In this document: positions 29,901 through 64,000 of the stretch, one piece after another
How positions within the stretch are numbered: position 1 is the stretch's first letter
How the letters are laid out: each line of letters opens with the position of its first letter
Source of the DNA: Cellulosimicrobium cellulans
GTDB taxonomy: Bacteria; Actinomycetota; Actinomycetes; Actinomycetales; Cellulomonadaceae
Reading direction: 5' to 3'
Assembly (NCBI RefSeq): GCF_016907755.1
Contig: NZ_JAFBCN010000001.1
Location: 1,302,001-1,366,000 of the forward strand
DNA: 64,000 bases
The notes under the pieces: generated by a model
What the model saw: the letters and a program-made list of their open reading frames with translations, nothing else
The model's database searches: none
What the model was told of the DNA's origin: nothing
Made by a program: the position numbers and the translations under genes

Positions 29901-31577
<1,677 letters not shown>

Positions 31578-49292: not shown

Positions 49293-50792
49293 TCATGCAT
49301 TCAACGGCGGGTAGGACGCCTTCGGCAGGTGGTAGGCGAGGTCGACGGCGGTCTCCAGCGCCTCGTCGAGGTCGAGGCGGTGCTCGGCGACGAGGCGGGC
49401 GAGGTGGCCGGCGTCGATCCGGCGCGCGAGGTCGTGGCGGGCCGGGACGGAGCAGAAGGCGCGCGTGTCGTCGACGAAGCCGCTCGTGTTGTAGAAGCCC
49501 GCGGAGTCGGTCGCGGCCTCGCGGAAGCGGCGCATGCCGTCGGGGGTGTCGAGGAACCACCACGGCGCGCCGAGCCGCAGCGCCGGGTAGACGCCCGCGA
49601 GCGGGGCGAGCTCGCGCGAGAACGTGTCCTCGTCGACGGTGAACGCGATCATCCGGAAGCCCGGGTGGTGGCCGAACGCCTCCAGGACCGGGCGCAGCGC
49701 GCGGACGTACTCGGTGCGCTCGGGGATGTCGTAGCCCTTGTCGGGGCCGTACGCCTGCACGACGCCGGAGCAGTGGTCGCGCAGGACGCCCGGGTGGAGC
49801 TGCATGACGAGCCCGTCCTCGGCCGACATCGCGGCCATCTGGAAGAGCATGTGGGCGGAGAAGGCCCGGGCGTCCGCCGCGGTGGCCTCGCCGCGCAGCG
49901 CGCGGTCGAGGATGCGGGCGGCGTCGACGTCGTCGAGGGGCGTGGTGTCGGCGGTCAGGTGGCCGTGGTCCGTCGCGCGGGCGCCGGCGGCGACGAACGC
50001 GGCGCGGCGCGACCGGAGCGCATCGAGGTAGGACCGGTAGTCGACGACGTCGGTCCCCGCCGCCGCGCCGAGCTCGGCCACCTGGGTGGCCCAGTCCGCA
50101 CGGTCGACGTGCAGGAGCGGGTCGGGGCGGAACGTCGGCACGACCCGCTCGCCCCAGCCGTCGGCCGCGAGGCGCGCGTGGTCGGCGAGCGGGGACTGCG
50201 CGGGGTCGGTCGTCGCGAGGAGCTCGAGGCCGAACTGCTCGAACAGCGCACGCGGCCGGAACTCGGGGCGCGCGAGGCGGTCGATCAGGTGGTCGTACAG
50301 CACGTCGGCGGTCTGCGCCGACGGCTTCACCGTTGCGCCGAACACCTCGACGAGCGCGTGCTCGGTCCAGTAGCGCGTCGGGGTGCCCCGGAACAGGTGC
50401 CAGCCCGCGCAGAACCGGCGCCAGATCTCGCGCGGGTCCGTCTCGGCGGGCGGGGTGCCGTCGGGCGCGCCGGGCACGGGCGCGACGCCGAGGTCCTGGA
50501 CGCCGCGCACGCCCGGTGCGCCGTGCGGCGACGTGCTCTGCGCGACGAGCATGCGCACGAGGTAGTGGTCCGGCGTCACGAACAGCGCGGCGGGGTCGCC
50601 GAACGGGGCGTCGTCGGCGAGCAGCGCGGCGTCGACGTGCCCGTGCATGGAGACGATCGGCAGGTCGCGCGTCGCGGCGTAGACCTCGCGGGCGAGCGGT
50701 CGGAGCACGGGGTCGGCGGGGAGCGCGCGGTCGGGGTGCAGGGACCACGGCGCCATCGCGGTGGTCGGGTCCAGGTGGGCCGTGCTCGTCAC
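49293..50792 (-). CDS. uxaC: Glucuronate isomerase
   Basis: A 499-residue cytoplasmic isomerase that converts D-glucuronate to D-fructuronate (and galacturonate to tagaturonate). Family motifs are IVSMHGHVDAALLADDAPF with metal-binding HGH, FRGTPTRYWTEHAL, MQLHPGVLRDHCSG, DIPERTEYVRALRPVLEAFG and GFVDDTRAFCSVPARHDLARR. GTG 50792 after GGAGGAACCC is chosen over ATG 50828, because that ATG lies on a LacI operator. First gene of uxaC-aguA-serine hydrolase, divergent from the LacI gene. Confidence 0.95.
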   Translation of the reverse strand: MTSTAHLDPTTAMAPWSLHPDRALPADPVLRPLAREVYAATRDLPIVSMHGHVDAALLADDAPFGDPAALFVTPDHYLVRMLVAQSTSPHGAPGVRGVQDLGVAPVPGAPDGTPPAETDPREIWRRFCAGWHLFRGTPTRYWTEHALVEVFGATVKPSAQTADVLYDHLIDRLARPEFRPRALFEQFGLELLATTDPAQSPLADHARLAADGWGERVVPTFRPDPLLHVDRADWATQVAELGAAAGTDVVDYRSYLDALRSRRAAFVAAGARATDHGHLTADTTPLDDVDAARILDRALRGEATAADARAFSAHMLFQMAAMSAEDGLVMQLHPGVLRDHCSGVVQAYGPDKGYDIPERTEYVRALRPVLEAFGHHPGFRMIAFTVDEDTFSRELAPLAGVYPALRLGAPWWFLDTPDGMRRFREAATDSAGFYNTSGFVDDTRAFCSVPARHDLARRIDAGHLARLVAEHRLDLDEALETAVDLAYHLPKASYPPLNA

Positions 50793-50813
50793 GGGTTCCT
50801 CCAGTGGCGTCGT

Positions 50814-50827
50814 TGCGAACGTTTGCA
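50814..50827. promoter_or_regulatory. Uronate-regulon LacI operator 1 (uxaC side)
   Basis: TGCGAACGTTTGCA, a 14-bp near-palindrome 22 bases before uxaC. The identical sequence occurs at 62568-62581 before the fructuronate reductase-like gene. Confidence 0.82.
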
Positions 50828-50870
50828 TCCTACGTCATCGGTGTTCTGATGTGCCACGACCCCCGAGCGC

Positions 50871-52119: not shown

Positions 52120-55100
52120 TCAGCCGCAGGACGGCTGGCCGTGCTCCGGCGTCGCGACGGTCTCCCGCTCGTCAGAGGTGTCGGACGGACGGGCGGTGAC
52201 GGTCACGGATCCGGCCGCCGGGTCCTCGACGCCCCGGACGGCGAACGACTGGTAGGCGTTCTTGCCGGGGGCGACGTCGGTGAACGTCTTGGACCCGTAC
52301 GGCGTGTCGAGGACGACGTCCAGCGGGACGGTGTCCTCGTTGAGCGCGCGGACGGCGACGTACGGCGTGCCCGCGAGGCACCGGACCTCGGCGGTCGCGG
52401 TGATCGCGACCTCCTCCTGGCCGGGCTCCTCCACGCTGGGGAGGCGCTCGATCCAGATGTTGCGGAACCGGGGGTTGAGGCCGGGGTCGCCGTGGTCCTG
52501 GAGCTTGATGTACCCCGACGTGGGTCCCTCTGCCCGGCCGTTTCCGGTCTTGCCGGTGACCGCGACGTCGTCGTGCACGACCTGCCCGTTCCACACGAGG
52601 GTGATGCGGGCGTCCTCGGTCTTCTTGCCGTCGGGACCGAACCGCGCCGCCCGGAACTCGAGGTCGTACGTCTGCCACGTGCCCATCGGGGTCGCGGCGT
52701 TCACGTCCGGGGCCTTCTGGAGGTAGATCGACCCGGCGTCGTTGTTCTTCGGCGGGTCGATGCCGAAGGACTCGAGCACCTGCACCTCGTACCGCTCCTG
52801 GATGTAGACGCCGCTGTTGCCGCGGGCCTGGCCCGTGACGTCGGGCGCGTGCTCGGGCTGGTACCACTCGACGTGCATCCGGAAGTCGTCGAACTTCTCC
52901 TTGGTGCGGATGTCGCCGCCGAACGACTCGACGGAGCCGTCGGCGATCGGCCAGGTCGCGGGCCCGCCGCCGTTGACGGCCGCCCACTGGTCGAGGTCGT
53001 CGCCGTCGAACAGCGCGATGCGCTCGGTCGGGGTGACCGTGAGGCTGTCGAGGTTGACGTGCCCGATGTCGTCGTCGTCGTGCCGGATCGTGATGGTGTT
53101 GGCGCCCTCGCGCAGCGGCACGGTCTCGACCTGGGTGGCCCAGGTGGACCAGGCCACCGTGCTGTCGAACCAGACCTGCTTGATCTTCTCGCCGTTGACG
53201 TAGAGGCTCAGGTTCCTCGGCAGCGGCGCGGGGTCGCTGTTCTGGCCGTTGGCGTAGCGGATCGCGAGGTCGTGCAGGCCGGCCTCCTCGGTGCGGACGG
53301 CGAACGTCGTCTGCGCACCCGGCTCCCAGTTGCGGTCCACGAACCCGGACCCCGAGTAGCCGGCGTGGTTGCTGTTCCACCCGGCCCCGCCCTCGATGTT
53401 CGCTGCCTCGGCCTCGTAGACCGGCGGCGCGACGGACCCGTCGGGCAGGCGCGTGAGGGTGTACCAGGCCTCGGTGCTCCACAGCTCCTGGCCGCTCTCC
53501 GACGCGAACGGGCGCGGGGAGTGGACGTTCACGACGCGGCCGGGCTTCAGCCCGTCGATCTGGAGCGTGACGGTCTTGCGGTCCTCCGAGACGGTCGCGG
53601 CCGCGACGTCGAGGTCTTCCTCGTCGACCTTCGGGCCCCCGTACTGCGGGGTCGCGACGTAGCGCCACTGCGCGGCGGTGTACTTCGACGCGAGGTCCTG
53701 TGCCGTCTCCTCGGACAGCGGCTGCGTGTACTCGATCTCGAAGCCGCCCTCGACGGCCCGCATCGCGAGCATGTCGAACGCGTTGTTGTCGTCGTACGTG
53801 AGCTTCTGCAGGCCGTAGGAGAGCTTGCCCGCCTGGCCCCAGTTGCCGGACCAGCCGATGCCACCGACGTAGATCGCACCGTCGGGGCCGACGCTCGTCC
53901 GGCTGACGCCGGACTCCAGGCCCTGCGTCATGCGGAAGACGGCACCCTGCTCCTGGCCCGCGACGTCCTCGAGGTAGGCGCGCTGCAGGCCGCCGTACGT
54001 GACGTCGCCGATCGCGAGCTGACCGGCGAACACGCCCTCGGTGAGCACGACCGGGTTGCTGGGCGAGTTCGAGATCTCGCTGTGCGGCATCCACAGGACC
54101 GGCTCGGTGACGGGCTGGTCGTCGTAGGGGCCGTCGGGGTTGGTGAAGTGGTTGTAGAACGCGCCTTCCTCGACGCGCACGAGCTTGGACGTCGGGATGC
54201 GGACGCCCTGGTTGTCGGCGACGTACATGGCGCCGTCGGCGCCCCAGCCGAGCCCGTTCGGGGTGCGCAGGCCGCCCGCGACGTACTCGACCTCGCCGGT
54301 CTCCTTGCTGATCTTCATGACCGAGCCGCGGTTCTCCGCGAGCTGTGGGTCGAGCGAGTTGCCGCCCGGCACCATCGCGATGCCGGTCGTGATGTAGAAG
54401 TAGCCGTCCTCGTACAGGAGGCCGAACGCGAACTCGTGGTAGTTGCCGCCGAACGGCCAGGTCGCGATCGTGTCGTACTCGTCGGCGACCTCGTCGCCGT
54501 CGGTGTCGACGAGCGCGGTGAGGCCGTCCTTCTCGGACACGTAGATCGTGCCGTCGACGTACTTGAGGCCCATCGGCTCCGTCAGGCCCTCCGCGACCTG
54601 GGTGTACGTCACCTCGTCCGCGCCGGTGTCCCCCTGGACGTGGTCGACCAGGTACACCGCGCCGAGCTGCGTGAGCCGGTCGCCGCCCCACGTGGAGATG
54701 GCCAGACGGCCGTCGGGCAGCCAGTCCATGCCGGTCACCTGGGGCTGGAAGCCCTCGGGGCGCAGGTCGGTGAGCGTGTAGTCGGGGTGCACCTCGGTGA
54801 GGGGCAGGCCGTCGCCGGGGGCCTCGGTGACGCCCTCGCACTGCTTGCGGCCGGGCGAGGTGACGCGCGTGACGTCGGCGTCGGTGCTCAGCACGGAGTT
54901 CGGCACGACGACGTAGCCCGACGCGCCCGGCGGGCGCCACTCGAGCTTGAGCCGCTGGTCGAACTCGCCGTCGAAGTGGTCGATGCGCAGCGCGCGGTAC
55001 CCCGCCTCGAGCGCGATCGACCCCTCCTTGGGCGTCGCGCCGTGGCGTCCCGGGTGGTCGACGACGAGCTCGTCGTCGAGCAGCAGCCGCGCGCCGTCGT

Positions 55101-55509
55101 CGTTCGTGATCCGGAAGTCGTACGTCCCGGCCTCGGGGACGTTCAGGTACCCCGTCACCTCGGTGACGAACTTGTCCGTGAGCCCGAAGTCGGCCGCCGT
55201 GGTCCAGTCGATGGTCGGCATGATCTTGTCGACGTTGGGCGTCTGCCCCGGCTTGAGCGTGCAGTAGTCGTCGAGGATGACCTGGACGTCGAAGACGCGC
55301 AGCGTCACGCCGGGCTCCTGCGGGCGGATGTCCGCCTGCGTCGCGGCAGGTGCCACGGCGGGCGCGGCGGTCGGCACCGCGGCCTGGGCCGTGAGGACGC
55401 CGGACGGCACGGCCAGGGCGGCGAGCGCCGCCACGACGGCGCGCCGTCTTCTGCGTCGGTGCCCGGGCGTGGCGTGCGGGGGTGGTGCGTCGGTCGAGGG
55501 GTGTTCCAT
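52120..55509 (-). CDS. Secreted PA14-propeller-CBM6-DUF1080 protein (putative 3-keto-glycoside processing)
   Basis: A 1129-residue exported multidomain protein. The signal region has an Arg run (RRRRRR near 18-23) and a hydrophobic core ending near QAAVPTAAP. Then come a PA14-like domain (about 73-193; TYDFRITNDDGARLLLDDELVVDH), a glucose/sorbosone dehydrogenase-like beta-propeller (about 256-573; GMDWLPDGRLAISTW, TPNGLGWGADGAMYVADNQG), a linker domain, a CBM6-like domain (about 693-825; YEAEAANIEGGAGWNSNHAGYSG), a DUF1080/3-keto-disaccharide hydrolase domain (about 830-1021; LFDGDDLDQWAAVNGGG, RGNSGVYIQ) and a beta-rich end. The ATG at 55509 follows GGAGAGGCAGG. Controlled by its own LacI, judging by the operator at 55604. 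Domain calls are good; activity is inferred. Confidence 0.88.
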   Translation of the reverse strand: MEHPSTDAPPPHATPGHRRRRRRAVVAALAALAVPSGVLTAQAAVPTAAPAVAPAATQADIRPQEPGVTLRVFDVQVILDDYCTLKPGQTPNVDKIMPTIDWTTAADFGLTDKFVTEVTGYLNVPEAGTYDFRITNDDGARLLLDDELVVDHPGRHGATPKEGSIALEAGYRALRIDHFDGEFDQRLKLEWRPPGASGYVVVPNSVLSTDADVTRVTSPGRKQCEGVTEAPGDGLPLTEVHPDYTLTDLRPEGFQPQVTGMDWLPDGRLAISTWGGDRLTQLGAVYLVDHVQGDTGADEVTYTQVAEGLTEPMGLKYVDGTIYVSEKDGLTALVDTDGDEVADEYDTIATWPFGGNYHEFAFGLLYEDGYFYITTGIAMVPGGNSLDPQLAENRGSVMKISKETGEVEYVAGGLRTPNGLGWGADGAMYVADNQGVRIPTSKLVRVEEGAFYNHFTNPDGPYDDQPVTEPVLWMPHSEISNSPSNPVVLTEGVFAGQLAIGDVTYGGLQRAYLEDVAGQEQGAVFRMTQGLESGVSRTSVGPDGAIYVGGIGWSGNWGQAGKLSYGLQKLTYDDNNAFDMLAMRAVEGGFEIEYTQPLSEETAQDLASKYTAAQWRYVATPQYGGPKVDEEDLDVAAATVSEDRKTVTLQIDGLKPGRVVNVHSPRPFASESGQELWSTEAWYTLTRLPDGSVAPPVYEAEAANIEGGAGWNSNHAGYSGSGFVDRNWEPGAQTTFAVRTEEAGLHDLAIRYANGQNSDPAPLPRNLSLYVNGEKIKQVWFDSTVAWSTWATQVETVPLREGANTITIRHDDDDIGHVNLDSLTVTPTERIALFDGDDLDQWAAVNGGGPATWPIADGSVESFGGDIRTKEKFDDFRMHVEWYQPEHAPDVTGQARGNSGVYIQERYEVQVLESFGIDPPKNNDAGSIYLQKAPDVNAATPMGTWQTYDLEFRAARFGPDGKKTEDARITLVWNGQVVHDDVAVTGKTGNGRAEGPTSGYIKLQDHGDPGLNPRFRNIWIERLPSVEEPGQEEVAITATAEVRCLAGTPYVAVRALNEDTVPLDVVLDTPYGSKTFTDVAPGKNAYQSFAVRGVEDPAAGSVTVTARPSDTSDERETVATPEHGQPSCG

Positions 55510-55603
55510 CAGCCTGCCTCTCCGTCGAGGACCGTGCGTCGGACTGCGCACAGGGCGCGCATCGGTGCGCTGTGCCGTCACTATCCGGGGCGCGCGCGGT
55601 CCG

Positions 55604-55617
55604 GGCAACGAGTTGCC
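55604..55617. promoter_or_regulatory. CAACnnGTTG operator before the DUF1080 gene
   Basis: GGCAACGAGTTGCC, a palindrome with CAAC/GTTG arms, 94 bases before the ATG. GTTGCCCC at 55622 adds a further half-site. Same motif at 56705 and 57492. Confidence 0.72.
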
Positions 55618-55664
55618 ACTTGTTGCCCCCTGTCCCGCCGACGGCGGCGCCCGCGGGGACGGGG

Positions 55665-56669
55665 TCAGGCCGGGCGGCCCGTCGAGCCGCGCTCGACGAG
55701 CTTGGCCGGGAGCAGCGTCGGCCCGGCGGCGGGCGCGGGCGACGGGCGGAGCTGTGCCAGGAGCCGCTGGACCGCGAACGACCCGAAGTGGCGCAGCGGC
55801 GCGGCGACGGTCGTGAGCGGCGGGGTGCAGAAGTCCGAGCCGAAGATGTTGTCGAACCCGACGATGCTCAGGTCGCGCGGGACCTCGACCCCGAGCCGGC
55901 GCAGGCCGCGCATCGCGCCGATCGCGATGAGGTCGTTGTACGCGACGGCCGCCGTGGCGGGGTGCTTGACGAGCGACTTGGCCGCGGAGAGCCCGCCGGC
56001 GAGCGTCGGCGGGAACGGGCCGATCCGCCGTGCCTGGACGTCGGTCTCGCGCGTCGCCTCGCGGAACGCGCGCCAGCGCATCCCGTCGGCCCACGACGCC
56101 TCGGGCCCCGCGACGTAGGCGAGGCTCGTGTGCCCGAGGTCGGCCAGGTGCTCGACGGCGCTGCGCATGCCCTGCGCGTTGTCCGTCAGGACGCTCGGGA
56201 CGTCCGTCATGTGCCGGTTCATGACGACGGTGGGACGCTGCTTCGCCGCGACCCGGATCGAGGAGTCCGAGAGCCGTGAGGTCGCGAGGACCAGGCCCTC
56301 GACGAGGGGCAGGGTCCGGTCCAGCGCGCGGCGCTCCGCCTCGTCGGACTCGTGGGCGTCGACCATGAGCAGCGTGTACCCGGCGTCGCGGGCCGTCTTC
56401 TCCGCGCCGCGGATGATCTCGAAGAAGAAGGGGTTGGTCACGTCGGCCACGACGATCGCGAGGAGCGAGGTCCGGCCCGTCGGCAGGCCGCGGGCCAGCG
56501 GGTTCGTCCGGTAGCCGAGCTCGCTCGCGACCTGGCGGATGCGCTCCGCGGTCTGCGCGTTGACGCGGCCGGGACGCGAGAACGTCCGTGACACGGTCGA
56601 GGGGGCGACGCCGGCCGCCTGGGCGACGTCGTAGATCGTCGGGCTGGCACCATTGCCGGCTGAGGTCAT
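55665..56669 (-). CDS. LacI-family regulator of the DUF1080/ABC system
   Basis: A 334-residue repressor. Helix-turn-helix YDVAQAAGVAPSTVSRTFSRPGRV (residues 13-36), then LAIVVADVTNPFFFEIIRGAEKTARDAGYTLLMVDA, VAYNDLIAIGAMRGL and IVGFDNIFGSDFCTPPLTTV. The ATG at 56669 is the only start fitting the domain. It is transcribed toward the DUF1080 gene, 155 bases away. CAAC-NN-GTTG palindromes precede this gene, the DUF1080 gene and the TIM-barrel/ABC operon, defining its likely regulon. Confidence 0.93.
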   Translation of the reverse strand: MTSAGNGASPTIYDVAQAAGVAPSTVSRTFSRPGRVNAQTAERIRQVASELGYRTNPLARGLPTGRTSLLAIVVADVTNPFFFEIIRGAEKTARDAGYTLLMVDAHESDEAERRALDRTLPLVEGLVLATSRLSDSSIRVAAKQRPTVVMNRHMTDVPSVLTDNAQGMRSAVEHLADLGHTSLAYVAGPEASWADGMRWRAFREATRETDVQARRIGPFPPTLAGGLSAAKSLVKHPATAAVAYNDLIAIGAMRGLRRLGVEVPRDLSIVGFDNIFGSDFCTPPLTTVAAPLRHFGSFAVQRLLAQLRPSPAPAAGPTLLPAKLVERGSTGRPA

Positions 56670-56704
56670 GCGGTCGGACTGTAACGGCCTTGACAGCGGT
56701 GGAC

Positions 56705-56718
56705 AACAACCGGTTGTC
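56705..56718. promoter_or_regulatory. CAACnnGTTG operator before the LacI gene
   Basis: AACAACCGGTTGTC contains the perfect palindrome ACAACCGGTTGT (56706-56717), 36 bases before the LacI start. Probable autoregulation. Confidence 0.7.
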
Positions 56719-56805
56719 ATCCTCGTGTCGCGGTCGTGCCGCGTGACCAGCAGGTACGCACCCGTGGCTCGTACCGTGCGACGACCCGCACGCGGCGCGT
56801 CCCGT

Positions 56806-57261: not shown

Positions 57262-57728
57262 CGCCCGGCGCGCCCTCCGCGCACCCGGCGCCCCGCCCTG
57301 ACGCGGCCCGGCCAGCCGCCGACGGTCCGTCACCGAACCGTCGCAGGGCGTCGTCCAGCGGCGCCGACCGGTGGCAACCGACGGCAACCACGCCTTTCCG
57401 CGCGTGTCGTCCTGACGTCACGGTCCGGCACCCGCGCCCCGGCGCGCCTCGCGCCCCGACCGCTCGTCCAGCGCTGTCAGGTGCAACAAATGGCAACTCG
57501 TTGTCCCGGCGATGGCCCGCACCTACTGTCCATGCCAGGCGCACGGAGAACGAGCTCCGTGCGCAGGACCTCGACCACCGTCCCGTACGACCCCGCGTCC
57601 TCGCCTCATCGGCCCCGCGCCGCCCCTCCGCACGAGCCCCTCCCCGGGCCGGAGGCTGCGGCCCGCGGGCTCACGGTGCCGGGCCGCGGCGTCGCCACGG
57701 GAGCCACCAGCAGAAGGGAGGGCGCTCG
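57262..57728 (+). promoter_or_regulatory. Non-coding control region of the TIM-barrel/ABC operon
   Basis: About 470 bases without a convincing gene. It holds GGCAAC half-sites at 57373 and 57383, the operator at 57492-57505 and a ribosome binding site GGGAGGG just before 57729. I see no clear -35/-10 pair and nothing else. Confidence 0.55.
57492..57505 (+). promoter_or_regulatory. CAACnnGTTG operator before the TIM-barrel/ABC operon
   Basis: GGCAACTCGTTGTC, one arm base different from the site at 55604. It lies 224 bases before the first gene, implying a long leader. Confidence 0.68.
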
Positions 57729-58556
57729 ATGTGGACGCTCTCGGGCTTCGCCGACGAGATCTCCCCTGACGTCGAGACGCAGTGCGTCGTCGCCTCCGAG
57801 CTCGGGCTGGGGTTCGTCGAGCTCCGCAGCGCGTGGGGCACCAACGTGCTCGACCTCGACGACGACCAGCGCGAGCGGGTCGCGGGCCTGCTGCACCGGC
57901 ACGACCTCCGCGTCTCCAGCATCGGGTCGCCCGTCGGCAAGATCTTCGTCGACGAGGACTTCGACCCCCACCTCGACCGGATGCGTCACGCCGCGCGCGT
58001 CGCCCGGCAGCTCGGGGCCCCGTACGTGCGGGTGTTCTCGTTCTTCGTGCGCCCGGGGACCGACCCGGCGTCGTGGCGCGACGTCGTCCTGAGCCGGATG
58101 GCGGCGCTCGCCGACGTGGCGCGCGCGGCGGGCGTCGTGCTGGTCCACGAGAACGAGAAGGACGTCTACGGCGACGTCCCGGAGCGGTGCCTGGACGTGG
58201 TCGAGTCCGTCGGCTCGCCGCACCTGGCCCTCGCGTGGGACTCGGCCAACTTCGTCCAGGTGGGCGTGCGCCCCTTCACCGACGGCTACGCGCTGCTGCG
58301 CCCGTACCTGGAGTACGTCCAGGTGAAGGACGCGCTCGCGGCGACGGGCGCCGTCGTGCCCGCCGGGCGCGGGGACGGCGAGGTGCCCGAGACCGTGCGT
58401 GCGCTGCGCGACGACGGCTTCGACGGGTTCTTCTCGCTCGAGCCGCACCTGAGCGAGGCGCACAGCCTCGGCGGGTTCTCCGGGCCGGAGCTGTTCACCG
58501 AGGCCTGGGAGGCCTTCACCACGATCCTCGACGCCGAGGCGGTGCCGTTCCGATGA
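57729..58556 (+). CDS. Sugar phosphate isomerase/epimerase-like TIM barrel
   Basis: A 275-residue cytoplasmic TIM-barrel enzyme (xylose isomerase-like/AP-endonuclease-2 fold). LSGFADEISPDVETQC opens the barrel; VHENEKDVYGDVPERC and LAWDSANFVQVG carry the usual metal-binding Glu and Asp, YVQVKDALAATGAVVPAGRGDGEV the His-free loop and DGFFSLEPHL the last Glu. The ATG at 57729 follows GGGAGGG. First gene of an operon with a NitT/TauT-type transporter and a Gfo/Idh dehydrogenase. Such pairs isomerise or eliminate on keto sugars; the substrate is unknown. Confidence 0.85.
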   Translation: MWTLSGFADEISPDVETQCVVASELGLGFVELRSAWGTNVLDLDDDQRERVAGLLHRHDLRVSSIGSPVGKIFVDEDFDPHLDRMRHAARVARQLGAPYVRVFSFFVRPGTDPASWRDVVLSRMAALADVARAAGVVLVHENEKDVYGDVPERCLDVVESVGSPHLALAWDSANFVQVGVRPFTDGYALLRPYLEYVQVKDALAATGAVVPAGRGDGEVPETVRALRDDGFDGFFSLEPHLSEAHSLGGFSGPELFTEAWEAFTTILDAEAVPFR

Positions 58557-59512
58557 CCGACGCGCCCAGCCCGGACGTCCCGCCGACGACCAGGACCACG
58601 ACCATGGAGGACCGCACGATGACGACTGCCCAGGAAGTGCGACCGGCCCGCCAGGCGGCGCGACCGCCCGCCGGGGCGGCCCGGCGCCCCGGCCCGCGCC
58701 CGCGCGGCACGACGTCGGTCGGCAGCCGGGTGGCGGCGGTCGCCTCGGCAGCCTGGCGCCCCGCGCTGGTGCTGCTCGCGCTGTTCGCCGTGTGGTGGTT
58801 CGTCGCGTGGCGCGAGCTCGTGCCGGCGTACCTGGTCCCGTCGCCGGGGGCCGTCTGGGACACGATGGTCGAGGACTGGGCGATGCTCGCCGAGCACACC
58901 TGGGTGACCACGATGGAGACGGTCGTCGGGTTCGTGCTCGCGTCCGTGATCGGCGTCGCGACGGCCGTGCTCCTCGTCTACTCGCCGACGGCCGAGAAGT
59001 CGCTCTACCCGCTCATCCTCTTCGCCCAGGTGATCCCCAAGATCGCGATCGCCCCGATCCTCGTGGTCTGGTTCGGGTTCGGCGCGGCGCCCAAGATCAT
59101 CCTCGCGGTGCTCATCGCGTTCTTCCCGGTCGTGGTCTCGGCCGTCGCGGGGCTGCGGTCGATCGACCCCGAGCTGCTGGAGATGTCGGCGACCATGGGC
59201 GCGTCGCGCTGGAAGACGTTCCGCAAGATCCGCTTCCCGGGGTCGCTGCCGCAGCTCATGTCCGGCCTCAAGGTCGCGGTCACGCTCGCGGTGGTGGGGG
59301 CGGTCGTCGGCGAGTTCGTCGGCGCCGACCGCGGCCTCGGGTACGTGCTGCTCCTCGCGAGCGGCAACCTCGACGCGCCGCTCCTGTTCGCCGACCTCAT
59401 CCTCATGTCGCTCATCGGCGTCGTGCTGTTCCTCCTCGTCGAGCTGCTGGAGCGTCTCCTCATCCCGTGGCACGCGTCGCGGCGCGGGAACCTCGTCCTC
59501 GCGTCCTCCTGA
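58553..59512 (+). CDS. NitT/TauT-type ABC permease
   Basis: A 319-residue inner-membrane permease with about six hydrophobic segments and the EAA loop ELLEMSATMGASRWKTFRKIRFPGSLPQLMSGL. The ATG at 58553 overlaps the preceding stop (ATGA); an ATG at 58619 has a better ribosome binding site (GGAGG, 8 bases) and may be the main start, losing only a disordered, Pro/Arg-rich tail. It works with the lipoprotein at 59582 and the ATPase at 60601. This transporter class usually carries nitrate, sulfonates, thiamine precursors or riboflavin, so its place among sugar enzymes is unusual. Confidence 0.88.
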   Translation: MTDAPSPDVPPTTRTTTMEDRTMTTAQEVRPARQAARPPAGAARRPGPRPRGTTSVGSRVAAVASAAWRPALVLLALFAVWWFVAWRELVPAYLVPSPGAVWDTMVEDWAMLAEHTWVTTMETVVGFVLASVIGVATAVLLVYSPTAEKSLYPLILFAQVIPKIAIAPILVVWFGFGAAPKIILAVLIAFFPVVVSAVAGLRSIDPELLEMSATMGASRWKTFRKIRFPGSLPQLMSGLKVAVTLAVVGAVVGEFVGADRGLGYVLLLASGNLDAPLLFADLILMSLIGVVLFLLVELLERLLIPWHASRRGNLVLASS

Positions 59513-59581: not shown

Positions 59582-60604
59582 ATGCGTGGTGCACGTCTGA
59601 CAGTCTCGCTGGCCGTGGCCGGCGTCGTGGTGGCGGGGACGGCGGCCTGCGGGCAGTCGGCCGACCCGTCCGGCCCCGCGGAGGGCGAGGGCGGCCTCAC
59701 CGAGGTCACCGTCACGCTCAACTGGGTGCCCTACGGCGAGCACGCGCCGTTCTACTACGGCGTCGAGCAGGGGATCTTCGAGGAGGAGGGGATCGACCTC
59801 ACGATCCAGCCGGGCAACGGCTCGGGGAACACGGTCCAGCAGGTCGCGCAGCGCAACACCGACTTCGGCTGGGCGGACACCCCGCCGCTCGCGAACGCGA
59901 TCAGCTCCGGCATGCCGGTGCGCAGCGTCGGCGTGTTCCTCCAGACCGGGCCCAGCTCGGTGGAGTTCTTCGCCGACCAGGGCATCAGCGAGCCCGCCGA
60001 CCTCGTGGGCAAGACGGTCGGCGGCACGCCGGGCGACGCGATGTACGGCACGTTCCCGGCCTGGCTGGAGCTCAACGGCGTCGATCCGGCGGACGTGACC
60101 GTGGTCAACGTGGACGCGGCGGGCAAGATCGCCGCGCTCATCGAGGGCAAGGTCGACGCGATCCAGGGCTTCCACCACGACCAGGCGCCGACGATCGAGA
60201 ACCAGACCGGTGAGGAGGTCGACGCGCTGCCCTTCGCGGACTTCGGCATGAACCTGCTCGGCACCGGGCTGGTGGCCAACGAGAAGCTCATCGCGGACGA
60301 CCCGGAGCTCGTCGAGGCGATGGTGCGCGCGACGTCGCGCTCGTTCCTCGCGGCGTCCGAGGACCCGGACGCCGCCGTCGCGGCGATGGCCGCGGGTGCC
60401 GAGCAGGCGCCCGACGAGGCGGTCCTGGCGGCGCAGCTCGCCGCGACGATCGAGCTGCTCAACCTCGCGGACGCGCCCGCCCCCGGCGTGAACACCGAGG
60501 AGCAGTGGACGGACACCCTGACGTTCCTGTCCGAGAACACGGACTTCGACGGCGGCACGACCCCCGCCGACTTCTGGGACGGCGCGTTCGGGGCGGACCT
60601 GTGA
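59582..60604 (+). CDS. NMT1/THI5-like ABC substrate-binding lipoprotein
   Basis: A 340-residue lipoprotein with lipobox AGTAAC (Cys near residue 23). The fold is the NMT1/THI5 type: VTLNWVPYGEHAPFYYGVEQGIFEEEGIDLTIQPGNGSGNTVQQVAQRNTDFGWADTPPLA runs through the N-lobe, and VGKTVGGTPGDAMYGTFPAWL and VDAIQGFHHDQAP form the ligand cleft. The ATG at 59582 follows AGAAGGAGTC. It binds the solute imported by the adjacent permease and ATPase. Relatives bind pyrimidine or riboflavin-like molecules; here a glycoside or its aglycone is possible. Confidence 0.88.
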   Translation: MRGARLTVSLAVAGVVVAGTAACGQSADPSGPAEGEGGLTEVTVTLNWVPYGEHAPFYYGVEQGIFEEEGIDLTIQPGNGSGNTVQQVAQRNTDFGWADTPPLANAISSGMPVRSVGVFLQTGPSSVEFFADQGISEPADLVGKTVGGTPGDAMYGTFPAWLELNGVDPADVTVVNVDAAGKIAALIEGKVDAIQGFHHDQAPTIENQTGEEVDALPFADFGMNLLGTGLVANEKLIADDPELVEAMVRATSRSFLAASEDPDAAVAAMAAGAEQAPDEAVLAAQLAATIELLNLADAPAPGVNTEEQWTDTLTFLSENTDFDGGTTPADFWDGAFGADL

Positions 60605-61416
60605 CCGCGACGGAGCTCGCGGTCCCCGCCGACGCGGTCGGCACGGACCCCATCATCGAGGTCCGCGACCTCACGATGCGCTTCACGTCGAAGCGGTCGG
60701 AGACCGTGGCGCTCGACGACGTCTCCCTGAGCGTCCAGCCGGGCGAGTTCGTCACGATCGTCGGGCCGTCCGGCTGCGGCAAGTCGACGCTGCTGAAGAT
60801 CGTCGCGGGCCTCACCGCGTACACCGAGGGCGAGGTGCGCCTGTACGGGCAGCCCGTCACGCGGCCGCAGCGCGACATCGGGTTCGCGTTCCAGCGCTCG
60901 GCGCTGCTGGAGTGGCGCGGGGTGCGCAAGAACATCCTGCTCCAGGCGGAGATGCGGGGCATGGACAAGCGCCGGGCGCAGGAGCGCGCGGACGCGCTCA
61001 TCGCGCTGACCGGGCTCACCGGCTTCGAGAAGGCCCTGCCGCACGAGCTGTCCGGCGGCATGCAGCAGCGCGTCGCGCTGTGCCGGGCCCTGCTGCACGA
61101 GCCGCGCGTCCTGCTCATGGACGAGCCGTTCGGAGCGCTCGACGCGCTCACGCGCGAGCAGATGAACATCGAGATGAACCGCATCTGGCGCGAGACCGGC
61201 ACGACGATCGTGCTCGTCACGCACTCCGTGCCCGAGGCGGTGTTCCTGGGGAGCCGGATCGTCGTCATGAGCCCGCGCCCCGGACGGATCGTCGAGACCC
61301 TCGAGCCCGGGCTGCCCGACGAGCGCGACTACGGCACGACGCTCGTCGACCCCCGGTTCACGGGGGCCGCCGAGCGGCTGCGCGACCTGCTCGGCGCCAG
61401 CCACGTCGCCGAGTGA
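60601..61416 (+). CDS. NitT/TauT-type ABC ATP-binding protein
   Basis: A 271-residue ATPase with Walker A GPSGCGKST, Q-loop IGFAFQRSALLEWRGVRKNI, signature LSGGMQQRVALCRAL and Walker B VLLMDEPFGALDALTREQMN, the SsuB/TauB/ThiZ-like subtype. The GTG at 60601 shares GTGA with the lipoprotein stop, and its own stop overlaps the Gfo/Idh start. Completes the three-part transporter. Confidence 0.93.
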   Translation: MTATELAVPADAVGTDPIIEVRDLTMRFTSKRSETVALDDVSLSVQPGEFVTIVGPSGCGKSTLLKIVAGLTAYTEGEVRLYGQPVTRPQRDIGFAFQRSALLEWRGVRKNILLQAEMRGMDKRRAQERADALIALTGLTGFEKALPHELSGGMQQRVALCRALLHEPRVLLMDEPFGALDALTREQMNIEMNRIWRETGTTIVLVTHSVPEAVFLGSRIVVMSPRPGRIVETLEPGLPDERDYGTTLVDPRFTGAAERLRDLLGASHVAE

Positions 61417-62531
61417 GCGCGTCCGTGCGGTCGGCGCCGGGGGGCGGCGGTCCCGGCGTCGGCGTCGGGATCGTCGGGATGGGCAGCATCGGCGTGCTGC
61501 ACGCGCGGGCGCTGCGCGACCTGGCGCCGCGGGCGCGGCTCGTCGCGTACAGCGGGGGCGCGGGCCTCGACGACGACGTGACGCCGTCGGGACCCGCGGC
61601 GCACCTGGCGCCGGACGAGGTGGTGCGCCACGAGGACGTCGACGTCGTGGCGGTCTGCACGCCGAGCGGGAGCCACGCGCGCCTCGCGCTCGCGGCGCTC
61701 GCGGCGGGCAAGCACGTCGTCGTGGAGAAGCCGCTCGCGGTGACGGTCGAGGACGCGCTCCTCGTCGAGCGCGTGGCGCGCGAGCGGGGCCGGGTCGTCT
61801 CGATGGTCTCGCAGCGCCGCTTCGAGCCCCAGCACCAGGCGCTCCGGCGCGCGCTCGACGACGGCGCGCTCGGCGAGCTGCGCCTCGTCGCGACGCACGT
61901 CCCCTGGTATCGCGACGACGACTACTACGCGGCCGCGCGCTGGCGGTCGTCCACGGCGGAGGGGGGCGGGTCGCTCATGAACCAGGGCGTGCACAACGTC
62001 GACCTCCTGCGCTGGCTGTGCGGGCCGGTCGAGTCGGTCACCGCCCAGGCGGGGACGCTCGCGCGCGCGTCGCGCGCGGCGGACCCCGTGCCGGGCGCCG
62101 ACGACGACACCGCCGAGGACACCACGGTCGCGACGCTGCGCCTCGCGTCGGGCGCGCTCGGCGTCGTCACGACGACGACGGCCACGCCCCCGGGGTTCCC
62201 CGCCACCCTCGCGCTCCACGGGTCGCGCGGGTCGGTGGAGCTCGCGCAGGACGAGGTGCTCCGCTGGGACGTGCCGGGCGTCCCGGCGCCCACGTCGGGG
62301 ACCTCGACGGGCGGCGCGGCCGACCCGCTCGCGATCGGTCACGCCGGTCACCGCGTGCAGTGGGAGCAGGTGCTCGCGGCCCTGGACGGCACGGCACCGC
62401 CCCCGGTCGACGCCGCCGACGCGGTGGAGACGGTCCGGCTCCTGTGCGCGATCCGCGAGGCCGCCGCGACCGGCCGGGCCGTCCGCCCGGGCGACCTCGC
62501 GGTGCGAGGGGCGGCGACACCGGCGCGGTGA
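61413..62531 (+). CDS. Gfo/Idh/MocA-family dehydrogenase
   Basis: A 372-residue NAD(P)-dependent oxidoreductase. The nucleotide-binding motif VGIVGMGSIGVLHARAL is at residues 18-34, KHVVVEKPLAVTVEDA near 100, and the substrate domain has RWRSSTAEGGGSLMNQGVHNVDLLRWL with the conserved His of the family. The GTG at 61413 shares GTGA with the ATPase gene, making it last in the TIM-barrel/NitT operon. Likely oxidises or reduces a sugar or keto-sugar handled by the TIM-barrel enzyme. Confidence 0.9.
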   Translation: MSASVRSAPGGGGPGVGVGIVGMGSIGVLHARALRDLAPRARLVAYSGGAGLDDDVTPSGPAAHLAPDEVVRHEDVDVVAVCTPSGSHARLALAALAAGKHVVVEKPLAVTVEDALLVERVARERGRVVSMVSQRRFEPQHQALRRALDDGALGELRLVATHVPWYRDDDYYAAARWRSSTAEGGGSLMNQGVHNVDLLRWLCGPVESVTAQAGTLARASRAADPVPGADDDTAEDTTVATLRLASGALGVVTTTTATPPGFPATLALHGSRGSVELAQDEVLRWDVPGVPAPTSGTSTGGAADPLAIGHAGHRVQWEQVLAALDGTAPPPVDAADAVETVRLLCAIREAAATGRAVRPGDLAVRGAATPAR

Positions 62532-62711: not shown

Positions 62712-64000
62712 GTGACCGCCCCGACCGACGTCCCGAGCCGACCCGGCCCGACGTCATCCCCCGCGACGCCGGCCGACGCCGCACGGTCGGCGCGACCGCG
62801 CCTGCGCCGCGACGCCCACCCCGCGTTCCCGCCGGCGCCCGTCCGCCCGACGCAGGTCGGGATCGTCCACCTCGGGATCGGCGCGTTCCACCGTGCGCAC
62901 CAGGCTGTCGTCACCGAGGACGCCGCGCGCGCCACGGGCGAGACGCGCTGGGGCATCCTCGGCGTGACGCAGCGCTCCGCGTCGGTGCGCGACCAGCTCC
63001 GTCCGCAGGGCGGGGTCTACACCGTGCTGACGGTCGGGCCCGACGGGGCGTCCCCGCGCGTCGTGGGGTCGGTGACCGACGTCGCGTGGCCGGCCGAGGA
63101 GACGGCGCGCGTCCTCGCGGCGCTCGCCGCGCCGACGACGCACGTCGTGACGCTCACCGTCACCGAGAAGGGGTACGCGCGTCGCGCCGACGGGCACCTC
63201 GACGTCGACGCCGTCGCGGGCGACCTCGACCTGCTGCGCCGCGAGGAGGCGGCCACGGGCTCTCCGGGCGCGGACGCGCCGGCCGCGGGCCTCCCGGCCG
63301 GCGCGGAGGACGTCGCCGACGCCGACGCGGCGACCAGCGCCGTCGGGCTCCTCGTGCGCGGCCTCGCGGCACGCCGTCGGGCCGGGGGAGCGCCCCTGAC
63401 CGTGCTGAGCTGCGACAACCTCGCCGACAACGGGCACGTGCTCGCGCGGCTCGTGAGCGAGGCGGTCGACGCCGCGCTCCCGGGCGCCGAGGGTGACGCG
63501 CTGCGCGCCTGGCTCGCCGCGTCGGTGACCTTCCCGTGCAGCATGGTCGACCGCATCGTGCCCGCGACCACGCCCGCGCAGCGCGACGAGGTCGAGACGC
63601 TGCTCGGCGCGCGCGACGAGGGCCTGGTGGTGGCGGAGCCGTTCCTGCAGTGGGTGATCGAGGACCGCTTCGCCGGGCCGCGCCCTGCGTGGGAGCGGGG
63701 CGGGGCGACCCTCACGAGCGACGTCGCGCCGTACGAGCGCGCGAAGCTGCGCCTGCTCAACGGCGCGCACTCCTATCTCGCCTATGCGGGCTCGCTCGCC
63801 GGGCACGCGACGATCGCCGCGGCCGTCGCCGACCCGGCGCTCGCCGCAGGTGCGCGGGCCCTGCAGGCCGACGCGCTCGCGACGCTGGACGCGCCCGACG
63901 GCGTCGACCTCGCCGCGTACGCCGAGACGCTGATCGCGCGGTTCGCCAACCCCGCGACCGGGCACACGACGCGCCAGGTCGCGATGGACGGGACGCAGAA
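62712..64000 (+). CDS. uxuB: Mannitol dehydrogenase-family oxidoreductase, probable fructuronate reductase, 3' end outside window
   Basis: The frame is open for 429 complete codons from GTG 62712 (after AGGAGG) to the right edge, roughly the family's usual length minus its last part. N-terminal VGIVHLGIGAFHRAHQAVVTED is the NAD-binding motif of long-chain mannitol dehydrogenases; SCDNLADNGH, SVTFPCSMVDRIVPATT and YERAKLRLLNGAHSYLAY carry the catalytic Lys and Asn-Gly-Ala-His. The family includes mannitol, fructuronate and tagaturonate enzymes. Operators shared with uxaC favour D-fructuronate reduction to mannonate. A Gly/Ala/Asp-rich insert near residues 180-205 is unusual. Confidence 0.88.
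   Translation, partial: MTAPTDVPSRPGPTSSPATPADAARSARPRLRRDAHPAFPPAPVRPTQVGIVHLGIGAFHRAHQAVVTEDAARATGETRWGILGVTQRSASVRDQLRPQGGVYTVLTVGPDGASPRVVGSVTDVAWPAEETARVLAALAAPTTHVVTLTVTEKGYARRADGHLDVDAVAGDLDLLRREEAATGSPGADAPAAGLPAGAEDVADADAATSAVGLLVRGLAARRRAGGAPLTVLSCDNLADNGHVLARLVSEAVDAALPGAEGDALRAWLAASVTFPCSMVDRIVPATTPAQRDEVETLLGARDEGLVVAEPFLQWVIEDRFAGPRPAWERGGATLTSDVAPYERAKLRLLNGAHSYLAYAGSLAGHATIAAAVADPALAAGARALQADALATLDAPDGVDLAAYAETLIARFANPATGHTTRQVAMDGTQ

Follow-up and report, generated by a model that had tools for sequence, protein, structure and literature searches.

Cleavage of glycosides by way of 3-keto intermediates, an alternative to glycoside hydrolases, has been recognized in a few bacteria (PMC9007349). 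In Caulobacter crescentus, extracytoplasmic oxidation by the membrane-bound LacABC complex is followed by hydrolysis proposed for the DUF1080 protein CCNA_01705, with a transporter, epimerases and a reductase encoded nearby, and mutant fitness data tie DUF1080 to lactose use, beside lactose 3-dehydrogenase (PMC9007349). Another DUF1080 protein, BT2157, belongs to a 3-keto-glycoside pathway of Bacteroides thetaiotaomicron (PMC9007349), and ThuAB has been tied to 3-keto derivatives of trehalose (PMC7404187, PMC4765114, citing Ampomah et al. 2013). Here we describe a locus in a 64,000-nucleotide stretch of DNA from the soil bacterium Cellulosimicrobium cellulans (hereafter the window; the genome is one 4.79-Mb contig), whose central gene encodes a protein of 1129 residues, the target, that joins a DUF1080 domain to a predicted dehydrogenase-type propeller and a CBM35 module (Table 1). 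BT2157 is accompanied by TIM-barrel and Gfo/Idh partners, as is the target, but in the target DUF1080 shares its chain with a propeller and a CBM35, the host is Gram-positive, the importer is of the NMT1 type, and the presumed oxidase is the propeller rather than a Gfo/Idh enzyme. With the Caulobacter system the target would have in common oxidation outside the cytoplasm ahead of DUF1080 action, whereas in Caulobacter the two steps are divided between separate polypeptides.

A new finding at the locus is a palindromic operator that stands both before the target and before a divergent operon that encodes a TIM barrel, an NMT1-type ATP-binding cassette (ABC) importer and a Gfo/Idh oxidoreductase. 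On the best reading it varies on the 3-keto-glycoside pathway already known. Our preferred account, to which we give slightly less than an even chance, is that the target is a secreted bifunctional enzyme that oxidizes and then splits its substrate, within a LacI regulon that also provides import and cytosolic finishing. It was assembled from computed domains, predicted fold, conservation, synteny, operator sites and fusion frequency, from which we infer the position of oxidation, the cleavage reaction, the order of steps, the substrate and the cofactor. The CBM35 and PA14 domains would hold the enzyme on its substrate, the propeller would oxidize a glycoside, most likely at C3, and DUF1080 would then cleave the 3-keto-glycoside by β-elimination or hydrolysis; the NMT1-type transporter would import the small product, and the TIM barrel, of a hydratase/isomerase type, would complete its processing in the cytosol together with the Gfo/Idh protein, of a 3-keto reductase type. 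Control of this set would lie with LacI_2, together with a second secreted-type propeller and a secreted-type TIM barrel, via one operator.

The target reading frame opens on the minus strand with an ATG at 55509, preceded by a purine-rich stretch, and closes with a stop at 52120; the signal-like N-terminus seen by eye points to secretion. An original prediction, made from the letters alone, had given the domain order as PA14, propeller, CBM6 and DUF1080. Pfam matches bear out three of these, but the remaining module is better named CBM35, because its CBM_6 match (22.1 bits) falls under the family cut-off of 28.9 whereas its CBM_35 match exceeds its own; a C-terminal module at about residues 1030–1129 was missing from that list. 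A Pfam scan of residues 574–695, which cover the β-rich domain behind the propeller, matched no family.

The DUF1080 domain matches PF06439 (3-keto-disaccharide hydrolase) with 138.5 bits against a cut-off of 26.8. Among solved structures 4qhz comes closest to it (E 3.9e-41), and the QDHG...FRNI block (QxHG..FRNI) of the domain aligns with 4qhz and with 8v31. The polar core of Glu908, Gln910, Gln1004, His1006 and Arg1016 is kept in 94/94 family sequences (L048 and L057 were excluded as wrong frame or fragment, and some genomes are represented twice), and the same 94 share His358 and Arg415 of the propeller, a catalytic-type histidine and an arginine of the neighboring blade; 27 of the 40 propeller positions inspected are invariant. 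Judged by conservation, the loss of catalytic residues in both domains, which the original prediction had named as a ground for abandoning it, was not seen. Among five paralogues compared, the propeller region is better kept (53–61% identity to the target) than DUF1080, which is quite different (25–30%).

The likeness of the propeller to sugar dehydrogenases gets little support from sequence alone, since the GSDH family PF07995 does not match the target at E up to 1 and is matched by 3/37 relatives (best E 0.028). DUF7133 (PF23500) matches residues 259–435 (34.1 bits, cut-off 27) and was matched in 36/37 relatives at E up to 10. The likeness emerges from the predicted structure: the best Protein Data Bank (PDB) matches of an AlphaFold2 model of residues 205–695 (predicted local distance difference test score, 84; predicted template modeling score, 0.87) are pyrroloquinoline quinone (PQQ) sugar dehydrogenases, which supports a six-bladed propeller of the GSDH type; a family missing from PDB fold listings was not counted as absent. 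Like PQQ-dependent soluble aldose sugar dehydrogenases and AA12 enzymes (3a9g, 2ism, 3das, 6h7t), the predicted propeller has six blades, with a His and an Arg of catalytic type at corresponding places in the motifs; unlike them, it lies outside Pfam GSDH, differs at the PQQ-anchoring positions and is fused. Counted from where the structural alignment begins, His358 and His135 of 2ism both lie 115 residues in, if the numbering of the entry is read as chain index. Residues were mapped by motif spacing and the end-to-end ranges of the structural alignment, not by superposed coordinates, because residue-level alignment to GSDH by hhalign and by our own profile alignment gave blade-sized matches, partly in shifted register, and was rejected; in our own alignment the top local match, in the wrong register, scored 34.6 and the Arg415 block 32.2.

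That oxidation and 3-keto processing go together is argued chiefly from the recurrence of the same partner types, whether fused in one chain, encoded side by side or placed under a common operator. Fusion is frequent: in a 60-genome sample of the class, DUF1080 was matched in 16 genomes, with 31 distinct strong frames (E below 1e-20) in 9 of them, a count that omits 14 weaker rows (E above 1e-20) of 47. In 22 of the 31, DUF1080 is preceded on the same chain by a GSDH or DUF7133 propeller, never followed by it, and for 3 others a propeller is encoded in a neighboring frame; with the C. cellulans genome set aside, 19 of 27 strong frames are fused to a propeller. That genome itself encodes twelve dehydrogenase-type propellers (10 GSDH, 2 DUF7133), of which three share a chain with DUF1080 (one also with ThuA), two with AP_endonuc_2 TIM barrels and four with ThuA, while three have no DUF1080, TIM or ThuA partner as far as scanned (the standalone GSDH L133 was unscanned). 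The ThuA-GSDH-PKD-CBM6 and GSDH-PKD-CBM6-TIM chains resemble the target in combining a dehydrogenase-type propeller, a CBM and a domain linked to 3-keto sugars, but they have other partner domains and GSDH proper in place of DUF7133; the nearest solved relatives of the fused TIM barrel are 8bvk, 8tcs, 8tcd and 8tct.

A scan of genomes found at least 590 stretches encoding a relative of the target, and all 80 relatives kept from these match from residue 64 or earlier through residue 1021 or beyond; their hosts include Streptomyces, Amycolatopsis and Micromonospora. We therefore reject the notion of a unique protein, the layout being widespread in Actinobacteria; its nearest named relatives, at 95–96% identity, are from Cellulosimicrobium funkei and C. 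cellulans. The statement that no characterized enzyme with the full layout is known was nonetheless fair: a search of the open-access literature for these domains joined found none, which is no proof of absence.

The 24-bp operator also precedes the target in 11/11 further genomes (0–2 mismatches) and the importer operon in 10/10 genomes holding that side (0–1 mismatches). It was absent from 10 shuffles of the window and, at up to 5 mismatches, from 78 control loci; the single additional hit, L083, comes from the same genome as L023. The 21-bp core of the operator, searched with up to 3 mismatches, has three sites in the 4.79-Mb genome, all exact, and the reversed core pattern has none. The third site precedes by ~100 bp an operon that encodes a 389-aa TIM barrel, whose N-terminus is signal-like (secreted type), and a 917-aa GSDH protein carrying PKD and CBM6 domains; this barrel shares 36% identity with the fused TIM barrels but does not significantly match the one encoded in the window. 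Genome G011 has this operon too, together with the site. Operators with up to 2 mismatches are present in 16/59 searched genomes, including all 14 with a target orthologue, the other two being G001 (incomplete, its contig ending just past the target-side site) and G021, and are absent from G002, G009, G010 and G015, which hold only a ~50% paralogue. These sites suggest that the target, the importer operon and the TIM/GSDH operon form one putative LacI-controlled regulon, with LacI_2, found beside the target in 12/12 genomes, as the likely binder of the shared operator.

Table 1. Features of the target gene and its surroundings (window positions)
Feature	Position	Strand	Remarks
UxaC, glucuronate isomerase	49293..50828	-	Pfam
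Target coding sequence	52120..55509	-	1129 aa; PA14 - propeller - β domain - CBM35 - DUF1080 - C-terminal module
C-terminal Ig-like module, residues 1030-1129	52123..52422	-	58 genome matches at E <= 0.001
DUF1080 / PF06439, residues 831-1021	52447..53019	-	Pfam E 3.5e-40; invariant Glu908, Gln910, Gln1004, His1006, Arg1016
CBM35, residues 697-827	53029..53421	-	Pfam CBM_35 38.7 bits, cut-off 28
β-rich domain after propeller, residues 576-690	53440..53784	-	AlphaFold2 model region
Six-bladed propeller (DUF7133), about residues 241-575	53785..54789	-	Pfam, AlphaFold2 predicted fold; invariant His358, Arg415
PA14, residues 65-202	54904..55317	-	Pfam E 1.2e-18
Signal-like N-terminus	55381..55509	-	Arg-rich run, hydrophobic stretch, AQA-A; read by eye
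Operator upstream of target, 24 bp	55603..55626	-	exact palindromic GCAACAARTGGCAACTCGTTGYCC
LacI-family regulator (LacI_2)	55665..56753	-	present in 12/12 genomes; start approximate
Second operator copy, upstream of divergent operon	57483..57506	+	exact GCAACAARTGGCAACTCGTTGYCC
AP_endonuc_2 TIM barrel (sugar isomerase/epimerase type)	57729..58556	+	no signal sequence seen
ABC permease, taurine/nitrate type	58625..59512	+	start approximate
NMT1/THI5-type solute-binding protein	59582..60604	+	lipobox-like N-terminus by eye
ABC ATPase	60601..61416	+	start approximate
Gfo/Idh/MocA oxidoreductase	61401..62531	+	no signal sequence seen; start approximate
UxuB-type fructuronate reductase	62712..64000	+	NCBIfam match below cut-off; cut by window end

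The gene order around these sites is also conserved. In 11/11 genomes with enough flank (window included), genes for the permease, the binding protein, the ATPase and the Gfo/Idh protein are divergently arranged beside LacI_2 and the target; in 9/11 the AP_endonuc_2 TIM barrel joins them, and UxaC stands on the other side of the target in 8/10, directly or with one LacI gene between. Among solved structures, the Gfo/Idh protein is nearest to 3q2i/3q2k, then to inositol dehydrogenases; further down follow DgpA, a glucuronide-3-dehydrogenase and sugar 3-ketoreductases.

Several observations weigh against a secreted enzyme that oxidizes and then splits. By motif alignment, the positions which we take from the Acinetobacter enzyme to be the PQQ-anchoring Lys/Arg/Arg correspond in the target family to Tyr/Glu520, Gly534 and Asn/Ser536, so that canonical PQQ binding is not borne out (with a possible one-residue shift Arg537 would enter the alignment), and these anchors are mostly lost too in nine multidomain GSDH proteins of the same genome. 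Profile comparison gave no end-to-end alignment of the propeller family with GSDH. No pqqC was found in the C. cellulans genome by a first scan in which the 14 controls were silent too, and in a phylum sample pqqC exceeded its cut-off in 6/198 genomes, this one not among them; nor does the target contain a CxxCH heme motif. Synteny is confined, no neighbor being conserved outside Promicromonosporaceae (best cluster, 7/74 loci by simple GC3-filter gene calling), and the third operator site stands at the TIM/GSDH operon in 2/16 site-bearing genomes (the two sites of G021 being uninspected). Inositol dehydrogenases outrank 3-keto-type enzymes among the solved relatives of the Gfo/Idh protein. Finally, THTE_1561, a characterized protein with DUF1080 as its single domain, has been described as an endo-xanthanase/lichenase (PMC9007349) and DUF1080 proteins have been proposed as xanthan-backbone glycosidases (PMC5673643), from which, by analogy, plain glycosidase action of the domain is possible. 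The original prediction of oxidation and then splitting outside the cell thus stands in part: the predicted fold, the invariant residues of both domains, the frequent fusion and the operator held in common with importer and sugar-enzyme genes speak for it, while the canonical PQQ anchors and pqqC are missing. Of the checks it had proposed, structure prediction yielded a GSDH-type fold but, by motif alignment, not the canonical anchors, and the neighborhood survey an operon kept within the family but not beyond it.

The cofactor evidence is pertinent to a first alternative, in which the propeller does not oxidize but serves as a binding or structural platform or catalyzes another reaction such as lactone hydrolysis, leaving DUF1080 alone catalytic on 3-keto-glycosides made elsewhere, for example by the second GSDH of the regulon. 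The differing anchor positions are consistent with it and the invariant His358 and Arg415 with an active propeller; we consider it unlikely. In a second alternative, which we judge distinctly improbable, DUF1080 is an ordinary glycosidase or carbohydrate-binding domain acting on intact polysaccharide and the protein a conventional multidomain carbohydrate-active enzyme for xylan side chains. The name given to THTE_1561 (PMC9007349), the CBM66 annotation that overlaps DUF1080 in 5/9 Thermogutta DUF1080 proteins (PMC5673643), the CBM35 of the target and the glucuronoxylan-type genes nearby argue for it, but it sits poorly with the operator common to the target and the Gfo/Idh and TIM genes, with the frequent fusion of DUF1080 to dehydrogenase-type propellers and with the Caulobacter fitness data (PMC9007349). 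Least probable is that the regulon handles some small molecule, inositol or a heterocycle, which is imported and processed by a cytosolic Gfo/Idh pathway, while the secreted proteins only release it with no 3-keto chemistry outside. The Gfo/Idh protein does have inositol 2-dehydrogenase as its top NCBIfam match (below cut-off), and the solute-binding protein comes closest to one that binds a pyrimidine precursor, but this reading leaves the conserved propeller-DUF1080 fusion and the secreted-type TIM barrel and second propeller under the same operator unexplained.

If the target does oxidize and then split, its substrate in Cellulosimicrobium may be a glucuronoside, a suggestion made because UxaC and the UxuB-type gene lie nearby and CBM35 modules bind uronic acids. 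With UxaC beside the target in 8/10 genomes, it is doubtful that such a route would stand apart from the classical hydrolases of the neighborhood, as had been claimed; the oxidative and hydrolase routes may converge on glucuronate. More broadly, Actinobacteria might carry out a whole 3-keto-glycoside pathway outside the cell, with propeller-DUF1080 and propeller-TIM fusions oxidizing, eliminating and hydrating on the polymer, non-canonical PQQ anchoring, NMT1-type import of the keto product and one LacI operator; as a complete scheme we regard this as unlikely. Were extracellular, fused enzymes of this kind at work in many Actinobacteria, many secreted "DUF" proteins of biomass degraders would gain a testable role, and the cofactor used by such propellers would come into question; a gene set with a defined operator lends itself to a direct genetic test.

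Beside the target, positions 29901–50828 of the window form a glucuronoxylan-type region with glycoside hydrolase (GH) families GH10, GH3, GH39 and GH42, read from sequence, and GH67 and UxaC by Pfam. In G011 the second GSDH gene of the regulon (L187) matches in two different frames, possibly through disruption or a sequencing error. Elsewhere in the C. cellulans genome, the ThuA-GSDH fusions (L031, L146, L147 and L151) carry PKD and mostly CBM6 in open frames of 1326–2065 aa, and two GSDH-PKD-CBM6 chains (L149:12924-17498 and L150:4533-9278, two matched stretches each) end in AP_endonuc_2 TIM barrels. A Cys-Cys-His motif stands at the catalytic-type His in 5/9 multidomain GSDH propellers, three with ThuA and two with TIM barrels. 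The paralogue L027:7817-11422 has a Pro/Asp/Thr-rich linker and a hydrophobic, Arg-ending tail resembling a cell-wall sorting signal. The C-terminal module of the target, whose copy there matched no Pfam family over cut-off, is about 90–100 residues long, usually with two Cys, and is predicted to be Ig-like; it forms the extreme C-terminus, mostly of long frames, in 30/30 copies inspected in this genome and is present in 22/149 genomes of the order (E <= 1e-5, at most 33 candidates scored per genome).

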